A DNA stretch of 64,000 nt from NCBI RefSeq assembly GCF_947495735.1, contig NZ_CANMAA010000001.1, positions 186,001 to 250,000 on the forward strand, in the 5' to 3' direction. This stretch comes from an uncultured Pseudokineococcus sp. GTDB lineage: Bacteria; Actinomycetota; Actinomycetes; Actinomycetales; Quadrisphaeraceae. Both the position numbers and the translations under genes were made by a program. Positions 5,961-62,961 of this stretch are shown here, in pieces. The notes beneath the pieces are model-generated. The model saw only the letters and a list, made by a program, of their open reading frames with translations, made no database searches and was not told the DNA's origin. Numbering within the stretch: position 1 is the first letter of the stretch; every line of letters begins with the position of its first letter.

Positions 5961-6006
5961 GGCTGTGCGCCCAGGTCGCGGTCTCCCGCGGCCTGGGCGC
6001 ACAGCC
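5961..6006 (+). terminator. Terminator of typA
   Basis: A near-perfect 21-bp stem (5961-5981 with 5986-6006, one G-U pair) closes on a TCTC loop, 14 nt after the typA stop. Confidence 0.85.
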
Positions 6007-6273
6007 GTCTCCGGCTGCGTCGCCCGTGCGACGTGGCCGTCGGCTCCCGCCCGAGGTGCGCCCGTGGCACGACGGCGCGGCCGGGCCTGCGGGGAGCACG
6101 TCAGGCAGGCGCTCCCGGACCCCAGCGGCCGGTGGGCCCGCTCGGACGGGTGACTGGTGCGCCGTCGCCAGTGCGACCCCGCAGGCGCGGGTGGGCCGGG
6201 ACGCGACCACACGTCCGTGACGCAGCGGGCGAGCCGCACACGTCGTCCCGGGCGCCCGTGCCGCACCACGACG

Positions 6274-6313
6274 CACGAGGGGCGCACCAGCAGCTGCTGG
6301 TGCGCCCCTCGTG
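6274..6313 (-). terminator. Terminator of the aldo/keto reductase
   Basis: A perfect 40-nt palindrome (20 nt on each side, AGCT at the centre) lies 16 nt beyond the reverse-strand gene's stop. It would work in both directions. Confidence 0.85.
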
Positions 6314-6328
6314 GCGTCCTGGGTGGGA

Positions 6329-16800: not shown

Positions 16801-16870
16801 CGCCGGACCGGGGACGCCGGACCGGGGACGCCGGACCGGGGACGCCGGACCGGGGACGCCGGACCGGGGA
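16801..16870. repeat. Five perfect tandem copies of a 14-bp repeat
   Basis: CGCCGGACCGGGGA is repeated five times without change, ending 65 nt before the stop of the next (reverse-strand) gene. It sits between convergent genes. I see no coding sense; it could be a minisatellite or affect transcript ends. Confidence 0.9.
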
Positions 16871-16934
16871 CGCTGAGTGCGGGGCGCCGGTGCGAGCGTG
16901 GTCGGTGTCCCGGGTCTGCGTCAGTCGGCCCCGG

Positions 16935-40151: not shown

Positions 40152-42143
40152 TCAGCTCTCGGCGGCGCGGTCGCCGCCCGAGCCGGACCGGACGCTGTCG
40201 GGCAGGGACCCGCTGGCCAGAGCCCCGCTCGGCAGGGACCGGCCGCCCTGGGCCCCGCCCGAGCGCGCCCCGCCGGACGTCGCCCCACCGGACCTCGCCC
40301 CGCGGGACTTCGCGTCGCCCGACGTCGCCTCGGTGGCCCGGGCCTCGCCGGACTGGGCCCCGCCGGACTGGGCCTCGCCGGAGCGGGCCTCGCCGGAGCG
40401 GGCCTCGCCGGAGCGGGCCTCGCCGGCCTGGGCCTCGCCGGCCTGGCCGCCACCGCGCCCGCCACGGCGGCGGCGACGGGGACGACGCCCGGCGGCGTCG
40501 CCCTCGGCGCCCTGGTCGCCGCCGTCGGTCGGCGCGCTGCCCGAGCGGGCCGGGGCCTCGTCCGCGGCCGTGGTGGTCGTCGTCGGCGCGTCACCGGTCG
40601 AGCCCTCGCCGCCGCGGCTGCGGCGTCGACGGCGCCCGGGGGCGTCGCCGTCACCCTCGGCGCGGGGCGCGCGCTCCTGGTCTCCGCTGCGGGCGCTGCC
40701 CCCCCGAGGGGCGCCGTCGCGCGAGCCGCCGTCGCGCGAGCCCCGCGCCCCGTCGCGCCCGCCGCCGCTGCGGCCGGTCTCGCCCAGGTCCTCGAGCACC
40801 TCGGCGCCCAGCCCGGCGCGGGTGCGGCGGCTGCGCGGCAGGCGTCCCGTGGTGCCCGCCGGGATGTCCAGGTCGCTGAACAGGTGCGGGGAGGTGGAGT
40901 AGGTCTCGACGGGGGCGGGGATCCCCAGGTCGAGCGTCTTGTCGATGAGGCCCCAGCGCGGCACGTCGTCCCAGTCGACGAACGTGACGGCGATGCCCTT
41001 CTGGCCCGCGCGGCCGGTGCGGCCGATGCGGTGGACGTAGGTCTTGTCGTCCTCGGGGCACTGGTAGTTCACGACGTGGGTGACGTCGGTGACGTCGATG
41101 CCGCGCGCGGCCACGTCCGTGGCGACGAGCACGTCGACCTTGCCGCTGCGGAAGGCGCGCAGGGCCTGCTCGCGGGCGCCCTGGCCGAGGTCGCCGTGCA
41201 GGGCCCCGGCGGCGAAGCCGCGCTCGGCGAGGTCGTCGGCGACCTTGGCCGCCGTGCGCTTGGTCCGGGTGAAGACGATGGACAGGCCGCGCCCCTCCGC
41301 CTGGAGCAGCCGCGCGAGGACCTCGACCTTGTCCATGGCGTGGGCCCGGTAGACGACCTGGCGGGTGGCCTTGACCGTGGCGCCGACGTCGTCGGGCTCG
41401 CTGGCCCGGATGTGCGTGGGCTGGGTCATGTAGCGGCGCGCCAGGGCGACGACCGGGCCGGGCATGGTGGCCGAGAACAGCATCGTCTGCCGGCCGGCGG
41501 GCGTCATCGCGAGGATCTTCTCGACGTCGGGCAGGAAGCCGAGGTCGAGCATCTCGTCGGCCTCGTCGAGGACGACGGTGCGGGCGTGGCCGAGGCGGAG
41601 CTTGCCCTGGTTGGCGAGGTCGAGCAGGCGGCCGGGGGTGCCGACGACGACCTCGACGCCCTTCTCGAGGGCCTCGACCTGCGGCTCGTAGGCGCGGCCG
41701 CCGTAGATGGTCAGCACGCGCACGGAGCGGCGGGCGGCGGCGGCGGTCAGGTCTCCCGAGACCTGCACGGCCAGCTCGCGGGTCGGGACGACGACCAGCG
41801 CCTGCGGCGAGCCGGGCTCGAGGAGGTCGTCCCAGCCCTCCTCGCCGGGGCCGACGGCGCGCTGGACGGCGGGGATGCCGAAGCCCAGGGTCTTGCCCGT
41901 GCCCGTCTTCGCCTGCCCGATGATGTCGTGGCCCGACAGGGCCACGGGCAGCGTCATGGCCTGGATGGGGAAGGGCCGCTCGATGCCCTTGACGGCCAGC
42001 GCGTCGGCGATGGCCTGCTGGACGCCGTGCTCGACGAACGTCGGCACGAGGGCCGGAGCGGCCTCGGGCGCGGGGGCCTCGAGGGTCTCGACGGCGATGT
42101 CGGCGACGTCCGCGGGCACGTCGGTGGTGGGGTCTGCAGTCAT
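40152..42143 (-). CDS. rhlE: DEAD-box RNA helicase (RhlE type) with repetitive tail
   Basis: 663 residues. An ATP-dependent RNA helicase for ribosome or mRNA remodelling. The motifs are PFPIQAMTLPVALSGHDIIG (Q), AKTGTGKT (I), PTRELAVQV (Ia), VLDEADEMLDLGF (II), FSATMPG (III), STDVAARGID-type segment (ATDVAARGIDV, V) and HRIGRTGRAG (VI). After about residue 450 the chain becomes Arg/Gly/Ser-rich and ends in pentapeptide repeats (SGEAR) encoded by seven 15-bp units at 40342-40446. The actinobacterial RhlE position next to DUF3107 and TetR is preserved. The start is ATG 42143 after a leader of about 130 nt. Confidence 0.93.
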   Translation of the reverse strand: MTADPTTDVPADVADIAVETLEAPAPEAAPALVPTFVEHGVQQAIADALAVKGIERPFPIQAMTLPVALSGHDIIGQAKTGTGKTLGFGIPAVQRAVGPGEEGWDDLLEPGSPQALVVVPTRELAVQVSGDLTAAAARRSVRVLTIYGGRAYEPQVEALEKGVEVVVGTPGRLLDLANQGKLRLGHARTVVLDEADEMLDLGFLPDVEKILAMTPAGRQTMLFSATMPGPVVALARRYMTQPTHIRASEPDDVGATVKATRQVVYRAHAMDKVEVLARLLQAEGRGLSIVFTRTKRTAAKVADDLAERGFAAGALHGDLGQGAREQALRAFRSGKVDVLVATDVAARGIDVTDVTHVVNYQCPEDDKTYVHRIGRTGRAGQKGIAVTFVDWDDVPRWGLIDKTLDLGIPAPVETYSTSPHLFSDLDIPAGTTGRLPRSRRTRAGLGAEVLEDLGETGRSGGGRDGARGSRDGGSRDGAPRGGSARSGDQERAPRAEGDGDAPGRRRRRSRGGEGSTGDAPTTTTTAADEAPARSGSAPTDGGDQGAEGDAAGRRPRRRRRGGRGGGQAGEAQAGEARSGEARSGEARSGEAQSGGAQSGEARATEATSGDAKSRGARSGGATSGGARSGGAQGGRSLPSGALASGSLPDSVRSGSGGDRAAES
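40342..40446 (-). repeat. Seven in-frame 15-bp repeats in the rhlE tail
   Basis: Units like GCCTCGCCGGAGCGG (plus strand) repeat seven times with small changes, encoding SGEAR/AGEAQ/SGGAQ-type pentapeptides. The tail is probably disordered and may bind RNA weakly. Confidence 0.85.
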
Positions 42144-50085: not shown

Positions 50086-53000
50086 GCCCGGCCGCGGGTC
50101 GTCCGTCCGGCGACGGCGACCAGCTGCTGCTCGAGCTGCCCGGTGAGGAGCCCGCGCCCGCCGCTCCGTCGCTGGACGCGCTGGCGGTGGCGCGGCTCCT
50201 GCGGCGCCACCCGCCCACGCCCGAGCAGCGCGCGGTCGTCGAGGCCGGGCTGGAGCCCCTGCTCGTCGTGGCGGGCGCCGGGTCCGGCAAGACGGAGACG
50301 ATGGCGGCGCGGGTGGTCCAGCTCGTGGTGTCCGGCCAGGTGGCCCCCGACCGGGTGCTCGGCCTCACCTTCACCCGCAAGGCCGCCGGCGAGCTGGCCG
50401 AGCGGGTGCGCGTGCGCCTGCGCGGGCTGCGGGCCGCTCTGGCGGCGCGCGGGGACGGCGCGCTGGTGGTGCCCGAGGGCGAGCCCGTCGTGGCCACCTA
50501 CCACTCCTACGCCGCGGGCGTCCTGGCCGAGCACGGCCTGCGCGTCGGCGTCGAGCCGGGCGCGCGGGTGCTGGGGGAGGCGGCGGCCTGGCAGCTGGCG
50601 TCGGAGGTGGTCGAGCGGTGGACGGGCGACCTGCCCGGCGTGGACTCCGCCGTCTCGACGGTCGTGCAGGGGGTCCTCGCGCTGGCCGCGGAGGGCGCCG
50701 AGCACCTCGTGGAGCCCGAGGCGCTGGACGCCGCCCTCGGCGAGGTGCTGGAGCGGGTGGGCTACCTGCCCAAGGACGACGCCGGCGGTGCGCCGGCCCG
50801 GCCGACGCCGTCCTCGCCGGTCGGCAGGGCCGTCTCGGCGCTGCGGGCCCGCCGCGCGCTCGTGCCGCTGCTGCACGCCTACGCCGAGCGCAAGGCCGCC
50901 GCCGAGGCGCTGGACTTCGGCGACCAGGTGCGCCTGGCCGCCCGGGCGGCCGCCCGCGCCCCGGCCGTCGGCGCGGTCGAGCGCGGGCGCTACGACGTCG
51001 TGCTGCTCGACGAGTACCAGGACACCAGCCACGCCCAGCTCGAGCTGCTGCGCCACCTGTTCGGCGGCGGGCACCCCGTCACGGCGGTCGGGGACCCGCA
51101 CCAGTCCATCTACGGGTTCCGCGGGGCGAGCGCGGGGACGCTCGAGCGCTTCCCGGCCCAGTTCCCGCGGGCGGACGGCGCGCCGGCGCCGGTGCTGCAC
51201 CTGTCGACGAGCTGGCGCAACGACGAGGAGGTCCTCGTCGCCGCCAACGCGGTCTCCGCGCCCCTGCGCGGTCCGGTCCCCGACCCGGTGGGCACCGACC
51301 CGGTGGACGCCGACCCGGTGGACGCCGCGCCCGTGGGCACCGACCCGGTGGGCACCGACCCGGTGGACGCCGCGCCGGTGGTGCCCGCTCCGGCCGGAGC
51401 CGACCCGGCGACCGGCAGCGGGCCCGCGGTCCCCGGCCCCGGTCGGTCCCGCGGCACCGGTGCACCGCTGGTGCCGCCGCTGGCCGCGCGGCCGGAGGCC
51501 GGGCGCGGCGAGGTCCGCGCGTCGTGGAGCGCGACGTCGGTCGCGGAGGCCGACGCGCTCGCCGAGGGCGTCGAGCGCGCGTGGCGGGCTCCGGGCGGGC
51601 AGCCGACGGCGGCCGTCCTGTGCCGTCGGCGCGCCCAGATCCCGGCCGTCGAGCAGGCCCTGCGGGCGAGGGGGCTGCCCGTCGAGGTCGTCGGCATGGG
51701 CGGGCTGCTGGAGCGGCCCGAGGTCCTGGACGTCCTCGCGGTGCTGCGCGTGCTGCACGACCCGGGGCGCGGCGACGCCCTCGCGCGGCTGCTCACCGGG
51801 CCGCGCTGGCACCTCGGGCCCCGCGACCTGCGCGCCCTGGGGCGGTGGGCCCGTCGCCTCGCGGACGACCCCGTCGGTGCGGTCGAGCCCGCCCCGGAGG
51901 CCGACCCCGCCGGCGAGGTCGGGCCCGAGGGGGTGCCGTCGGCCGAGGACGCCGGGGCTCCGGGGACCCGCCGCGACCGGCCGGAGCCCTCGGAGGCCGC
52001 GGGGCTCGTCGAGGCGCTGGCCGCCCTGGCGGGAGACCGCCCGGGCAGCGGCCCGCAGCGCGGGCTCTCGCCCGAGGGCCACCGGCGCCTCGTCCGGCTG
52101 GCCCGCGAGCTCGCGGGCCTGCGCGCGCGCAGCGGCCAGCCGTTGCCCGACCTCGTGGCCGACGTCGTCCGCACGACCCACCTCGACGTCGAGCTCGCCG
52201 CGGCCCCCGGGGCCTCGCCGTCGTCGGCGCGCGCGCAGCTGGACGCGCTCACCGAGGTCGCGGCGTCCTTCACCGAGTCGGCCCGGGGCGCGTCGCTCGG
52301 CGGCTTCCTCGCCTGGGTCGACGCCGCGGCCGCCCGGGAGCGCGGTCTGGAGCAGGCCGAGGAGGACGACCCCGTCGGGGAGCCCGACGAGGTCGAGCCC
52401 AGCCGCACCGCGGTGCAGGTCCTCACGGTGCACGCGGCCAAGGGCCTGGAGTGGGACGTGGTCGCGGTCCCGGGCCTGGCCGAGGGCACGTTCCCCAGCC
52501 GGGTGGGCGGGGGGCGCGCCGGGGCTCCGGACACCGGGTCCGGCTGGCTCGTCGGGCTCGACGCGCTGCCGTACGACCTGCGGGGCGACGCCGCGTCGCT
52601 GCCGCGCTGGCAGTGGGGCACGGCGCGCTCGCTGGAGGAGCTCACCGCGCGCACGACGGCCTTCCAGCAGGACTGCGGCGCCCACGCCGTCGACGAGGAG
52701 CGCCGGCTCGCCTACGTGGCCCTGACCCGCGCCCGGCACCTGCTGCTGCTCTCGGGGGCCTCCTGGACGCCGGGCCGCAAGACCCCGGTGCGCCCCTCGC
52801 GCTTCCTGCTCGAGGTGGCCGCGGCCCTCGGTCCCGACGTCCTGGCCGACCTCGAGCGCTCGGCGGCGGAGACGGGCGAGGGCGCGCCGCCCCCGGACGC
52901 CGTCACGGCGCCCTGGCCCGACCCCTCCGGGCCGCCGGAGGCGCTGCGCGGCGCGGCGGAGGCCGTCCGCGCCGTGCTGGCCGGCGCGTCGTCCGGAACG

Positions 53001-61479: not shown

Positions 61480-61737
61480 GTGAGCACCCGCCCCGCCCGT
61501 CCTCCCGACCACCTGCCCGACCCCGCCGGGGTCCTCGCCCGGCCGACGACCCAGCCCGTCAGCTCCTCGACGCTCACCGCCCGCGCGCTGCGCGGGGCCC
61601 GGGACGAGCGGCGCCTCACCGACGCCCTGGCGCTGCGCGCCGCCGACCGGCTCGAGCGCCGGGCGCTGCGTGCCACCGAGCGCGCTGCCGGCGCCCGGCG
61701 GCGCGCGGAGACCGCCGCTGCCCTCGCCCGCGCCTGA
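61480..61737 (+). CDS. Small Arg/Ala-rich protein of unknown function
   Basis: 85 residues from GTG 61480, with GAGGAG about 9 nt upstream. The composition is Ala/Arg/Leu-rich and mostly helical (RALRGARDERRLTDALALRA, ADRLERRALRATERAAGARR). No cysteines and no family are recognised. It may share the whiB7 transcript, since no terminator lies between them, and a good terminator follows. It could bind nucleic acid, judging only by charge. Confidence 0.55.
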   Translation: MSTRPARPPDHLPDPAGVLARPTTQPVSSSTLTARALRGARDERRLTDALALRAADRLERRALRATERAAGARRRAETAAALARA

Positions 61738-61742
61738 CCCGG

Positions 61743-61769
61743 GAGCCCGCCACCGCCGGTGGCGGGCTC
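61743..61769 (+). terminator. Terminator of the small Arg/Ala-rich gene
   Basis: A 12-bp perfect stem (61743-61754 with 61758-61769), followed by TCCGT, lies 5 nt after the stop. Confidence 0.85.
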
Positions 61770-61851
61770 TCCGTCGTCCGGGCGGCAGTCGCCCCGGCGG
61801 CGCCCTGGTGACCTGGGCCGCGGTGCATCAGGCCCGGTGCTCTGCGTCGTG

Positions 61852-61991
61852 GTGACCCGAACCCGTGACCCGAACCCGTGACCCGAACTCGGTGACCCGC
61901 ACCCGGTGACCCGCACCCGGTGAGCCGCACCCGCTGACCCGCACCCGGTGACCCGCACCCGGTGACCCGCACCCTGGTGACCGGCACCGAG
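61852..61991. repeat. Ten tandem copies of a 13-15-nt repeat
   Basis: The unit is GTGACCCGCACCCG, with variants at the edges (GTGACCCGAACCC at the left, GTGACCGGCACCGAG at the right). The middle copies are identical 14-mers. No spacers occur between copies, so this is not a CRISPR array. Confidence 0.92.
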
Positions 61992-62003
61992 GTGACGTCC
62001 AGG

Positions 62004-62108
62004 GGGGTGGGGCGGCTGGTGCCACGGCACGTGAGCCGAGCAGCCCCCGCGGGGCGCGAGCCCCGCGGGAGCGCGGAGGCAGTGCCGTGGCACCAGTCGC
62101 CCCACCCC
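62004..62108. repeat. Large inverted repeat with nested hairpin
   Basis: Two 27-nt arms (62004-62030 and 62082-62108) pair with a single G-U exception, and the 51-nt loop contains its own stem (CCCGCGGGG with CCCCGCGGG, around 62046-62069). Both arms contain GTGCC(A/G)(C/T)GGCAC. It lies 13 nt after the repeat array. Confidence 0.85.
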
Positions 62109-62243
62109 ACCCAGCCCGGCGCCCGCGACGCCGCCCCGCGTCCCCTGTCCCCGTGAGCGCGCCCCCGCCCACCGGGGCCCGGGGAGCCGCTCGAGCCGGG
62201 GGAGTGCACGAGCGAAGGGCTGCCGCGGTGCCCGGGCCGCGGC

Positions 62244-62249
62244 TAGCGT
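62244..62249 (+). promoter_or_regulatory. Leaderless -10 of the AIM24 gene
   Basis: TAGCGT is followed by 7 nt and GTG 62257. Confidence 0.6.
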
Positions 62250-62256
62250 CCGGCGC

Positions 62257-62961
62257 GTGCGCAGCCACCTCTTCGACCCCGCCCACGCCGAGCAGCAGAC
62301 CTCGGCCCGCTGGACCCGTCAGAACCACAAGATGGCCCGGGTCGTCCTGGGCCCCGACGTGCTCGCGGCCAAGGGGGCGATGGTCGCGTTCCAGGGCGAC
62401 GTCCGCTTCGACCACGAGGGCTCGGGCAGCGTCGGGCGCCTGGTGCGCCGGCTCGTGTCGTCGGCGGACACGCCGCTCATGCGCTGCTCGGGCGCGGGCG
62501 AGGTCTTCTTCGCCCGCCGGGCCGAGGACGTCTTCACGGTCGAGCTCGAGGGCGACGCCATCTCCGTCGACGGCGCGAACGTGCTGGCCTTCGACGCCGA
62601 CCTGGACTGGGACGTCCGGCGCGTCCAGGGCGCCGGGACCCTCACGGGCGGTCTGTTCACCCTGGAGATCAGCGGGCGGGGCACCGTCGCCCTGACCAGC
62701 GACGGACCGCCGGTGCTGCTGGACTGCTCGCAGCAGCCCACGTCCGTGGACCTGCAGGCGGCGGTGGCGTGGTCGGCGAACCTCCGGCCGACGCTGCGCA
62801 GCAGCCTGAACGCGCGCTCGATGCTGCGGGGCGGCACCGGCGAGGCGTTCCAGTACGTGTTCTCCGGGCCGGGCTTCGTGGTCGTCCAGCCCAGCGAGGG
62901 CCAGCCGGTGCCGCAGGGCGGTGGCGGGAACGGCGGCGGCCTGGGGGACCTCTTCAGCTGA
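62257..62961 (+). CDS. AIM24 family protein
   Basis: 234 residues with the AIM24/TIGR00266-type beta-rich fold: [74 protein letters not shown], and [22 protein letters not shown] at the end. A Gly-rich tail follows. The family is found in all domains and its function in bacteria is not established. The leaderless start GTG 62257 fits the family N-terminus. The upstream region is the repeat-rich non-coding stretch. Confidence 0.9.

Follow-up and report, generated by a model that had tools for sequence, protein, structure and literature searches.

A dispersed hairpin family in Pseudokineococcus, most likely a non-autonomous mobile-like element, and the tandem array at its edge

Introduction

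The locus described here holds repeats of two kinds side by side, and the question is what such a pair is: within the 64-kb stretch of Pseudokineococcus DNA that was analysed as a whole (hereafter the window), a regular 14-nt tandem array is followed at short distance by a long inverted repeat with a hairpin nested in it. An earlier note on the same DNA had offered a protein-binding array of the partition type, a structured RNA and a mobile miniature repeat as candidates. Among these, the mobile miniature repeat has turned out to fit best, as the inverted repeat belongs to a dispersed family and the window site is empty in three relatives. We regard the inverted repeat as a copy of a dispersed, non-coding and non-autonomous mobile-like hairpin of the REPIN/ERIC/"mobile repeat" kind, and the array as a satellite that arose from its edge, and assign to this reading a probability of roughly 0.6. 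The hairpins form a real family, restricted to one genus as far as the searches reach, that is most likely a non-autonomous mobile-like element.

The array and the hairpin at the window site

The tandem array of about ten GGTGACCCGCACCC-like units has been located on the + strand at 61851–61988 (repeat family D2; period 14, 9.9 copies, 91% matches, TRF score 204), and its score is the highest among the 45 TRF rows for the whole window. Nine ungapped copies follow each other at spacings of 13, 13, 14, 14, 14, 14, 14 and 14 nt, with a unit close to the 5′ motif GGTGACG-n-CAC of other hairpin copies. Other arrays have been observed in the window as well, namely 5.2 perfect copies of the 14-nt unit CGCCGGACCGGGGA at 16801–16873 and arrays with periods of 15, 30, 45 or 60 at 40242–40446 and 51280–51408.

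The arms of the inverted repeat (62004–62030 and 62082–62108) are 27 nt long, 96% complementary and separated by 51 nt, in which a nested 13-nt inverted repeat is found (62043–62055/62060–62072, 92% complementary). The region 61990–62120 is predicted to fold with −107.3 kcal/mol, compared with −71.55 kcal/mol (sd 4.26) for 200 dinucleotide shuffles, none of which folds as well (z −8.39). Both repeats, as described in the earlier note, are confirmed, and so is the 519-nt extent of the non-coding gap (61738–62256); the spacer between array and arm, given there as 13 nt, measures 15 nt. The gap is flanked by an 85-aa ORF without Pfam match and by an AIM24-family gene, upstream of which hairpin and array are placed. 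Beyond the ORF, on the upstream side, a WhiB-like gene and a gene for a UvrD-type helicase are found, and a prfB-like frame, as read from its translation, lies downstream.

A hairpin family apparently restricted to Pseudokineococcus

The proposal to look for the 14-mer and the arms elsewhere in the genome and in relatives has proved to be the right test in kind, although conservation lies in the inner core and in the stem length and not in the arm sequence. Searching 39 genomes with the gap sequence has yielded further matches to the hairpin part, both in the own genome and in two of the other three Pseudokineococcus genomes. The core GCACGT[G/C]AG…AG[G/C]CAGTGC served to align fifteen copies, and the model built from them (R1) has found, under stricter filters, 14 copies in G000, 9 in G001, 10 in G003 and 1 in G002, and none in 55 other genomes. 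With E values up to 5 allowed within the genus, the numbers are 15, 9, 10 and 7 in the same order, and the matches in the own genome are spread over 7 contigs. Of the six weak matches in G002, five fall into a further subfamily, D, whose core is similar and whose tip is different, and which is present in all four genomes; the sixth, L124, has been judged not to be a member of the family.

Across the order, the exact pattern GGCACGTSAGSC-N30..60-GSCAGTGCC, which passes over diverged copies with other core letters (e.g., GTAA in L123), occurs 14 times in G000, 11 times in G001, 14 times in G003 and 8 times in G002; of the 392 other sampled genomes, 3 have a single match each. The reversed pattern, taken as control, has been found 0 times in the four Pseudokineococcus genomes and once each in 2 of the 396 overall. 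In a collection of 84,980 species, in which the window's own record is possibly absent, all 11 stretches with the stricter A-type core come from Pseudokineococcus (Kineosporiaceae, Actinomycetota), P. marinus JCM 14547 accounting for 6 of them and an uncultured isolate for 5. As judged from these searches, the hairpin family appears restricted to Pseudokineococcus.

Besides A and D, subfamilies B and C have been recognised, and each of the 4 Pseudokineococcus genomes searched holds at least two subfamilies. The window itself has a second, weaker member of subfamily B on the + strand at 6082–6189, between a TypA-like gene and a convergent gene. It has the core GCACGTCAGGCAGG…GTCGCCAGTGC, reaches only E 0.73 with model R1, and its outer stem pairs poorly, with 7 bp under the simple rule. 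Two long near-perfect hairpins, at ~5961–6006, just after the TypA-like gene, and at ~6268–6318, bracket this copy. In L080, near the contig end (G000:C9), a long run of C starts from ~7896 directly after a hairpin copy and is probably an assembly artefact at the hairpin.

Comparison with Rfam has given a best score of 24.3 bits for the window region, with a gathering score of 168, and solely tRNAs in 20 fetched family loci. Phage origin was considered and rejected: the strict core occurs in 0 viral contigs, and the relaxed core occurs in 5, none of which folds into an outer stem of about 26 bp. A description of the family has not been found in the literature, where the outcome of the broader search rests on titles and abstract openings and subscription journals are thinly covered.

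A shared core, a nearly fixed stem length and a free stem sequence

The copies may each be described as one hairpin with inverted half-cores GGCAC…GTGCC and a variable outer stem, the shared core being approximately GGCAC-GTSA-GSC…GSC-A-GTGCC around a variable tip. At the window site all parts are read on the + strand. The 5′ arm of the outer stem (62004–62030) ends in the conserved GGCAC (62026–62030), and the stem comprises 26 bp here if Watson-Crick pairs alone are counted. It is followed by the asymmetric internal loop GTGA with the inner GCC (62031–62037), whose columns are invariant or covarying in the alignment of 15 copies (A2), and by the apical hairpin (62043–62072, inverted repeat I6), which differs between copies and is variable in the alignment. 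The right core GGC-A-GTGCC (62078–62086), seen in the core alignment, in the covariation and in the order-wide pattern, leads over into the 3′ arm (62082–62108), which is given by the inverted repeat, the fold and the covariation.

The outer-stem sequence varies from copy to copy while pairing is kept, and the length is nearly constant: by a symmetric Watson-Crick-only rule, 31 of the 38 A/B/C stems measure 24–28 bp and the other seven 6, 7, 8, 9, 11, 17 and 21 bp. Subfamily D has an extra internal loop; among the 14 distinct cores that remain of its 17 loci, the stem on the outer side of this loop has 17–20 bp in 13 and 11 bp in the other. The asymmetric internal loop of the core has mostly GTSA opposite one A. 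For the inner GSC pair, covariation is seen in subfamily A and not in D, where GGC stands opposite GGC in 7 of 14 cores. Readings of the loops as K-turn or sarcin-ricin motifs were dropped, as the loop letters vary.

Short motifs are enriched at both feet of the hairpin. On the 5′ side, 23 of 38 copies have GGTGA[CG] within 40 nt of the model, as against 0 of 38 at the mirrored place and 192 of 5156 random 40-mers; on the 3′ side, 32 of 38 have CCRRCC within the same distance, as against 12 of 38 at the mirrored place and 671 of 5156 random 40-mers. At the window site these are represented by GGTGACG (61991–61997, +), which adjoins the hairpin, and CCCAGCC (62110–62116, +). The GTGAC that the earlier note had seen just before the inverted repeat is indeed present (61992–61996); it occupies the place of the flank motif that is enriched next to related hairpins, and is more than a stray unit of the array. 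Where two copies lie within ~300 bp of each other, which is the case at 8 places, 7 of the pairs are divergent and 1 is direct. In the gyrB-gyrA gap of L078 (11778–12152), two opposite-facing copies with nearly identical cores lie ~200 bp apart.

Covariation and the strand that folds

With the structure taken from the fold of the window copy, 23 of 35 pairs have changed on both sides among the 15 aligned copies. The covariation score of 0.437 compares with 0.134 (sd 0.017) for 500 shuffles, none of which is as high, and it is at most 0.134 if the partner is slid. The same has been observed at orthologous positions, where eight sites gave 18 pairwise comparisons over 22 pair positions, i.e., 396 cells from overlapping and hence not independent comparisons. 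Of these cells, 308 are unchanged, 55 have double changes and 7 have single changes that still pair, and pairing is broken by single changes in 23 and by double changes in 3. Double changes that keep pairing thus make up 55 of the 88 changed pairs over the 18 overlapping comparisons.

Arms that change together would also be expected if such palindromes were kept perfect by template-switching during replication, with the fold itself unselected and a chance satellite beside it, so that the whole locus would be a mutational by-product. The numbers of double and single changes (58 versus 30 over the 18 comparisons, and 12 versus 14 for the closest species pair, G001–G003) are compatible with such a process. 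It leaves unexplained, however, why dispersed copies share a core, a loop, flank motifs and a nearly constant stem length, and why, in the A/B/C copies, G·T exceeds A·C on one strand. Template-switching, already weakened by the conserved core, is in our estimate a very improbable account of the locus.

The strand bias has been read from the mismatches in the outer stem. In the 38 A/B/C copies, G·T occurs 31 times and A·C 6 times, G·G 26 times and C·C once; with shared events counted once, G·T and A·C stand at 23 versus 6 (p 0.002). As equal folding of both strands in duplex DNA would give equal numbers of G·T and A·C, the bias suggests that the + strand of the element is the folded one. In subfamily D the numbers are small and mixed, with G·T 5, A·C 3, G·G 10 and C·C 0, and in a poorer count, which forbids G·U in the fold, with G·T 4 versus A·C 11. 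This latter count (51:10 for A/B/C and 4:11 for D, G·T:A·C) is itself skewed in its control 120-mers (G·T 127 versus A·C 171, G·G 453 versus C·C 121), and for this reason the Watson-Crick-rule count for A/B/C and the mismatch count for D have been relied upon. Because of the small and mixed numbers in D, we grade it as probable that the + strand folds, be it as RNA or as single-stranded DNA. A symmetric cruciform as the sole selected form is weakened by the G·T:A·C bias, and this evidence is partial in that the bias is not clearly reproduced in subfamily D. The structured RNA among the earlier candidates is supported to the extent that the covariation and, in part, the G·T:A·C bias speak for a folded single strand, whether of RNA or ssDNA.

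Genomic placement and signs of movement

The copies are found mainly between genes and on many contigs, with mixed orientation to the neighbouring genes. Many lie by housekeeping genes at sites common to several species (dnaA-dnaN, gyrB-gyrA, tig-clpP, rpsD), and further shared sites of this kind are rseP-ispG, pyk and pepO-cobO; the gene names are readings of translations, and some copies overlap ORFs that have been judged spurious. Gaps with a copy are tandem in 26, convergent in 9 and divergent in 2 cases, compared with 31, 8 and 13 for control gaps, so that divergent gaps are rarer with a copy (2 of 37 versus 13 of 52). These counts come from a simple gene caller with orthologous sites counted separately, both "divergent" cases rest on doubtful left genes, and at least one "tandem" case (L071) is probably convergent.

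The scarcity of divergent gaps, which places the copies mostly by the 3′ end of a gene, is what one would expect of a functional structured RNA, i.e., of transcribed 3′ or intergenic hairpins that serve as terminators or stabilisers of mRNA ends and are bound by an RNA-binding protein. Covariation, the G·T bias on one strand and the positions shared in several species at dnaA-dnaN, gyrB-gyrA, tig-clpP and rpsD point in the same direction. Such a function is at odds with the inconsistent gene orientation, which is even reversed at one site between species: at tig-clpP, G001 and G003 carry the whole unit, both foot motifs included, in opposite orientations and with a nearly unchanged stem. It is also at odds with orthologous sites in relatives that are without the element. 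In the window gap, moreover, a separate 13-bp hairpin (61743–61769) stands directly after the upstream ORF, and a consensus scan of 61700–62300, which reaches T-run terminators and sigma-70-type promoters, has returned 0 of either; the earlier statement that the locus is not a terminator pair holds for this type of terminator. We consider a structured RNA function unlikely, yet as a possibility to be taken seriously.

The reading as a mobile-like element draws on sites that differ between relatives. At the window site upstream of the AIM24 gene, array and hairpin are, by eye, absent in 3 of 3 relatives, and the gyrB-gyrA gap measures ~110 bp in G002 and ~580 bp with two copies in G000. The one clean filled/empty pair that has been found is L096 versus G001:C204, in which GCCCCCTGA stands on both sides of an insert of ~213 bp as a 9-bp direct repeat. 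This repeat may be a target duplication, and a deletion between short repeats would look alike. A partial deletion at L142, where half of the copy is lost in G001, points to the latter possibility; at the L146 site, G001 retains at least part of the copy. L086 and G003 were not alignable as a second case, and the insert ends, which in a MITE would be terminal inverted repeats common to the copies, are by eye not obviously shared with the flanks of other copies. Several sites are common to related species, which tells against inferring present movement.

Among the enzymes searched for, i.e., Y1 transposase and reverse transcriptase, none has been found that would mobilise the element. Y1_Tnp (PF01797) has 0 matches in the own genome, and as a control the same family was found in 5 of 14 named genomes; as the own genome is 96.7% complete, a Y1 gene may have been missed. 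A retron-like reverse transcriptase is present in G000 and G001, and none was found in G002 or G003. A retron or other reverse transcriptase has been rejected as the mover, being present in only 2 of 4 genomes and not found in the copy-rich G003 (97% complete). The retron-like enzyme at L126:1024–2361 (G000:C21) has the motifs YADD and VTGVVVN and its best PADLOC matches are RT_other and RT_outgroup. For the mobile-like element we envisage a trans-acting protein that would recognise the folded single strand, RNA or ssDNA, via the loop and the length of the stem, and that would spread or maintain the hairpin.

Origin of the array

The array unit GGTGACCCGCACCC is similar to the motif found 5′ of other copies, e.g., GGTGACGCGCAC in L071. 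Of 52 distinct copies, 9 have an array of at least 2.8 units within 200 bp, compared with 0 of 42 control gaps; five of the nine show a 14- or 15-nt period, and the repeated motif of several is foot-like. Array and hairpin are nonetheless separable, as follows from L025, in another genus of the same bacterial family, where a 7.4-copy array of nearly the same 14-mer has no core motif within 600 bp; in the own genome, too, a short array of a near-identical 14-mer stands alone. An array of another type has been seen in L026 (~2042–2139; G028, another genus), where 12.2 copies of the 8-nt unit CGCTGACC start from the 3′ end of a called gene, the stop codon seemingly having been copied along with the unit.

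The regular 14-nt spacing of about 10 units, and the occurrence of arrays near 9 of the 52 copies, may bring to mind a protein-binding array of the partition or nucleoid type, to which the hairpin would be an accessory site. Against this stand the 43 of 52 copies without an array within 200 bp, the orthologous arrays at L142, which by eye differ between two species in unit number and sequence, the absence of the array from the window site in relatives, and the similar arrays that stand alone elsewhere. The partition-type array that had been suggested for the window is likewise disfavoured by the spread of R1 matches over 7 contigs, and we think it hardly probable.

The simplest reading is that the array is a satellite seeded by the edge of the element, and it is probably a by-product of the hairpin element. 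It would have arisen as the 5′ flank motif was duplicated again and again, rather than as an independent device, and it may have been tolerated because the gap is inert. A neutral minisatellite would vary in unit number between relatives; the window array has no orthologue for such a comparison, and the comparable array beside L142 does, by eye, differ between two species. A bolder version would make of the family a new mobile or regulatory class, in which a protein reads the fixed loop and measures the ~26-bp stem of free sequence in a single strand, copies one arm from the other when spreading, and uses the foot motif as a binding or cleavage site that the same enzyme has amplified into the array; this we hold to be doubtful, although not negligible.

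Comparison with known systems

Integron attC sites are imperfect palindromes that are recognised as a folded strand, one strand being marked by extrahelical bases. The Pseudokineococcus hairpins may be similar, as imperfect palindromes that would be recognised as a folded strand marked by such bases, and differ in that their conserved sequence is internal and not at the ends. ERIC elements are conserved in sequence, whereas the outer stems of the present family share their length and not their sequence. ERIC and related families are described, similarly to the hairpins here, as intergenic single long stem-loops of similar size (PMC2267715).

Dispersed covarying hairpins as such are of a known kind, as can be taken from the available accounts of REPINs (PMC3116915), GTAG/CGTC repeats (PMC3733652), mobile and repeat candidates (PMC11109978) and stem-loop families (PMC2267715). 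REPINs or REP-BIMEs are REP doublets that are moved by RAYT tyrosine transposases. By the published accounts they share with the present family an intergenic and dispersed occurrence, a single hairpin, compensatory stem changes and a predominance of head-to-head dimers (PMC3116915; PMC3733652). The Pseudokineococcus family, in contrast, conserves an inner core where REPINs conserve two outer REP units, has few copies, and occurs in a genome in which no Y1 transposase has been found. The end tag of REP elements was looked for in the 10 nt outside the stem of 32 of the 38 A/B/C copies, namely those with a stem of 20–30 bp: at the 5′ foot GTAG is found in 0 and CGTC in 2 of 32, and at the 3′ foot both are found in 0 of 32, random 10-mers having GTAG in 75 and CGTC in 625 of 5600. 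An identity as RAYT/REP has been rejected on these grounds, i.e., no Y1_Tnp and no GTAG/CGTC end tag.

MRSC-65-2 resembles the family in that, by its description, it has a single long stem, strong covariation, several copies per genome and an inconsistent gene orientation (PMC11109978). The traits that mark MRSC candidates, a covarying structure, multiple copies per genome and inconsistent orientation to genes, are all found in the Pseudokineococcus family, whose nameable neighbours are housekeeping genes. As described, MRSC-65-2 differs by a UYCCGG repeat and its occurrence in diverse phyla (PMC11109978); the present family has been found in one genus so far and is distinguished by its asymmetric internal loop and by flank motifs that sometimes have tandem arrays close by.

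Dispersed covarying hairpin repeats being known already, the family sets itself apart by its core, its stem, its foot motifs and the lack of a REP tag and transposase. With 8–14 exact-core copies per genome it constitutes a small and tractable set for studying spread without a REP-type transposase, and it allows one to ask whether the edge of such a hairpin can give rise to tandem arrays. The family, of which no earlier description was found, follows a clear pattern in which stem length and loop are nearly fixed and the stem sequence is free, with arms that often change together.
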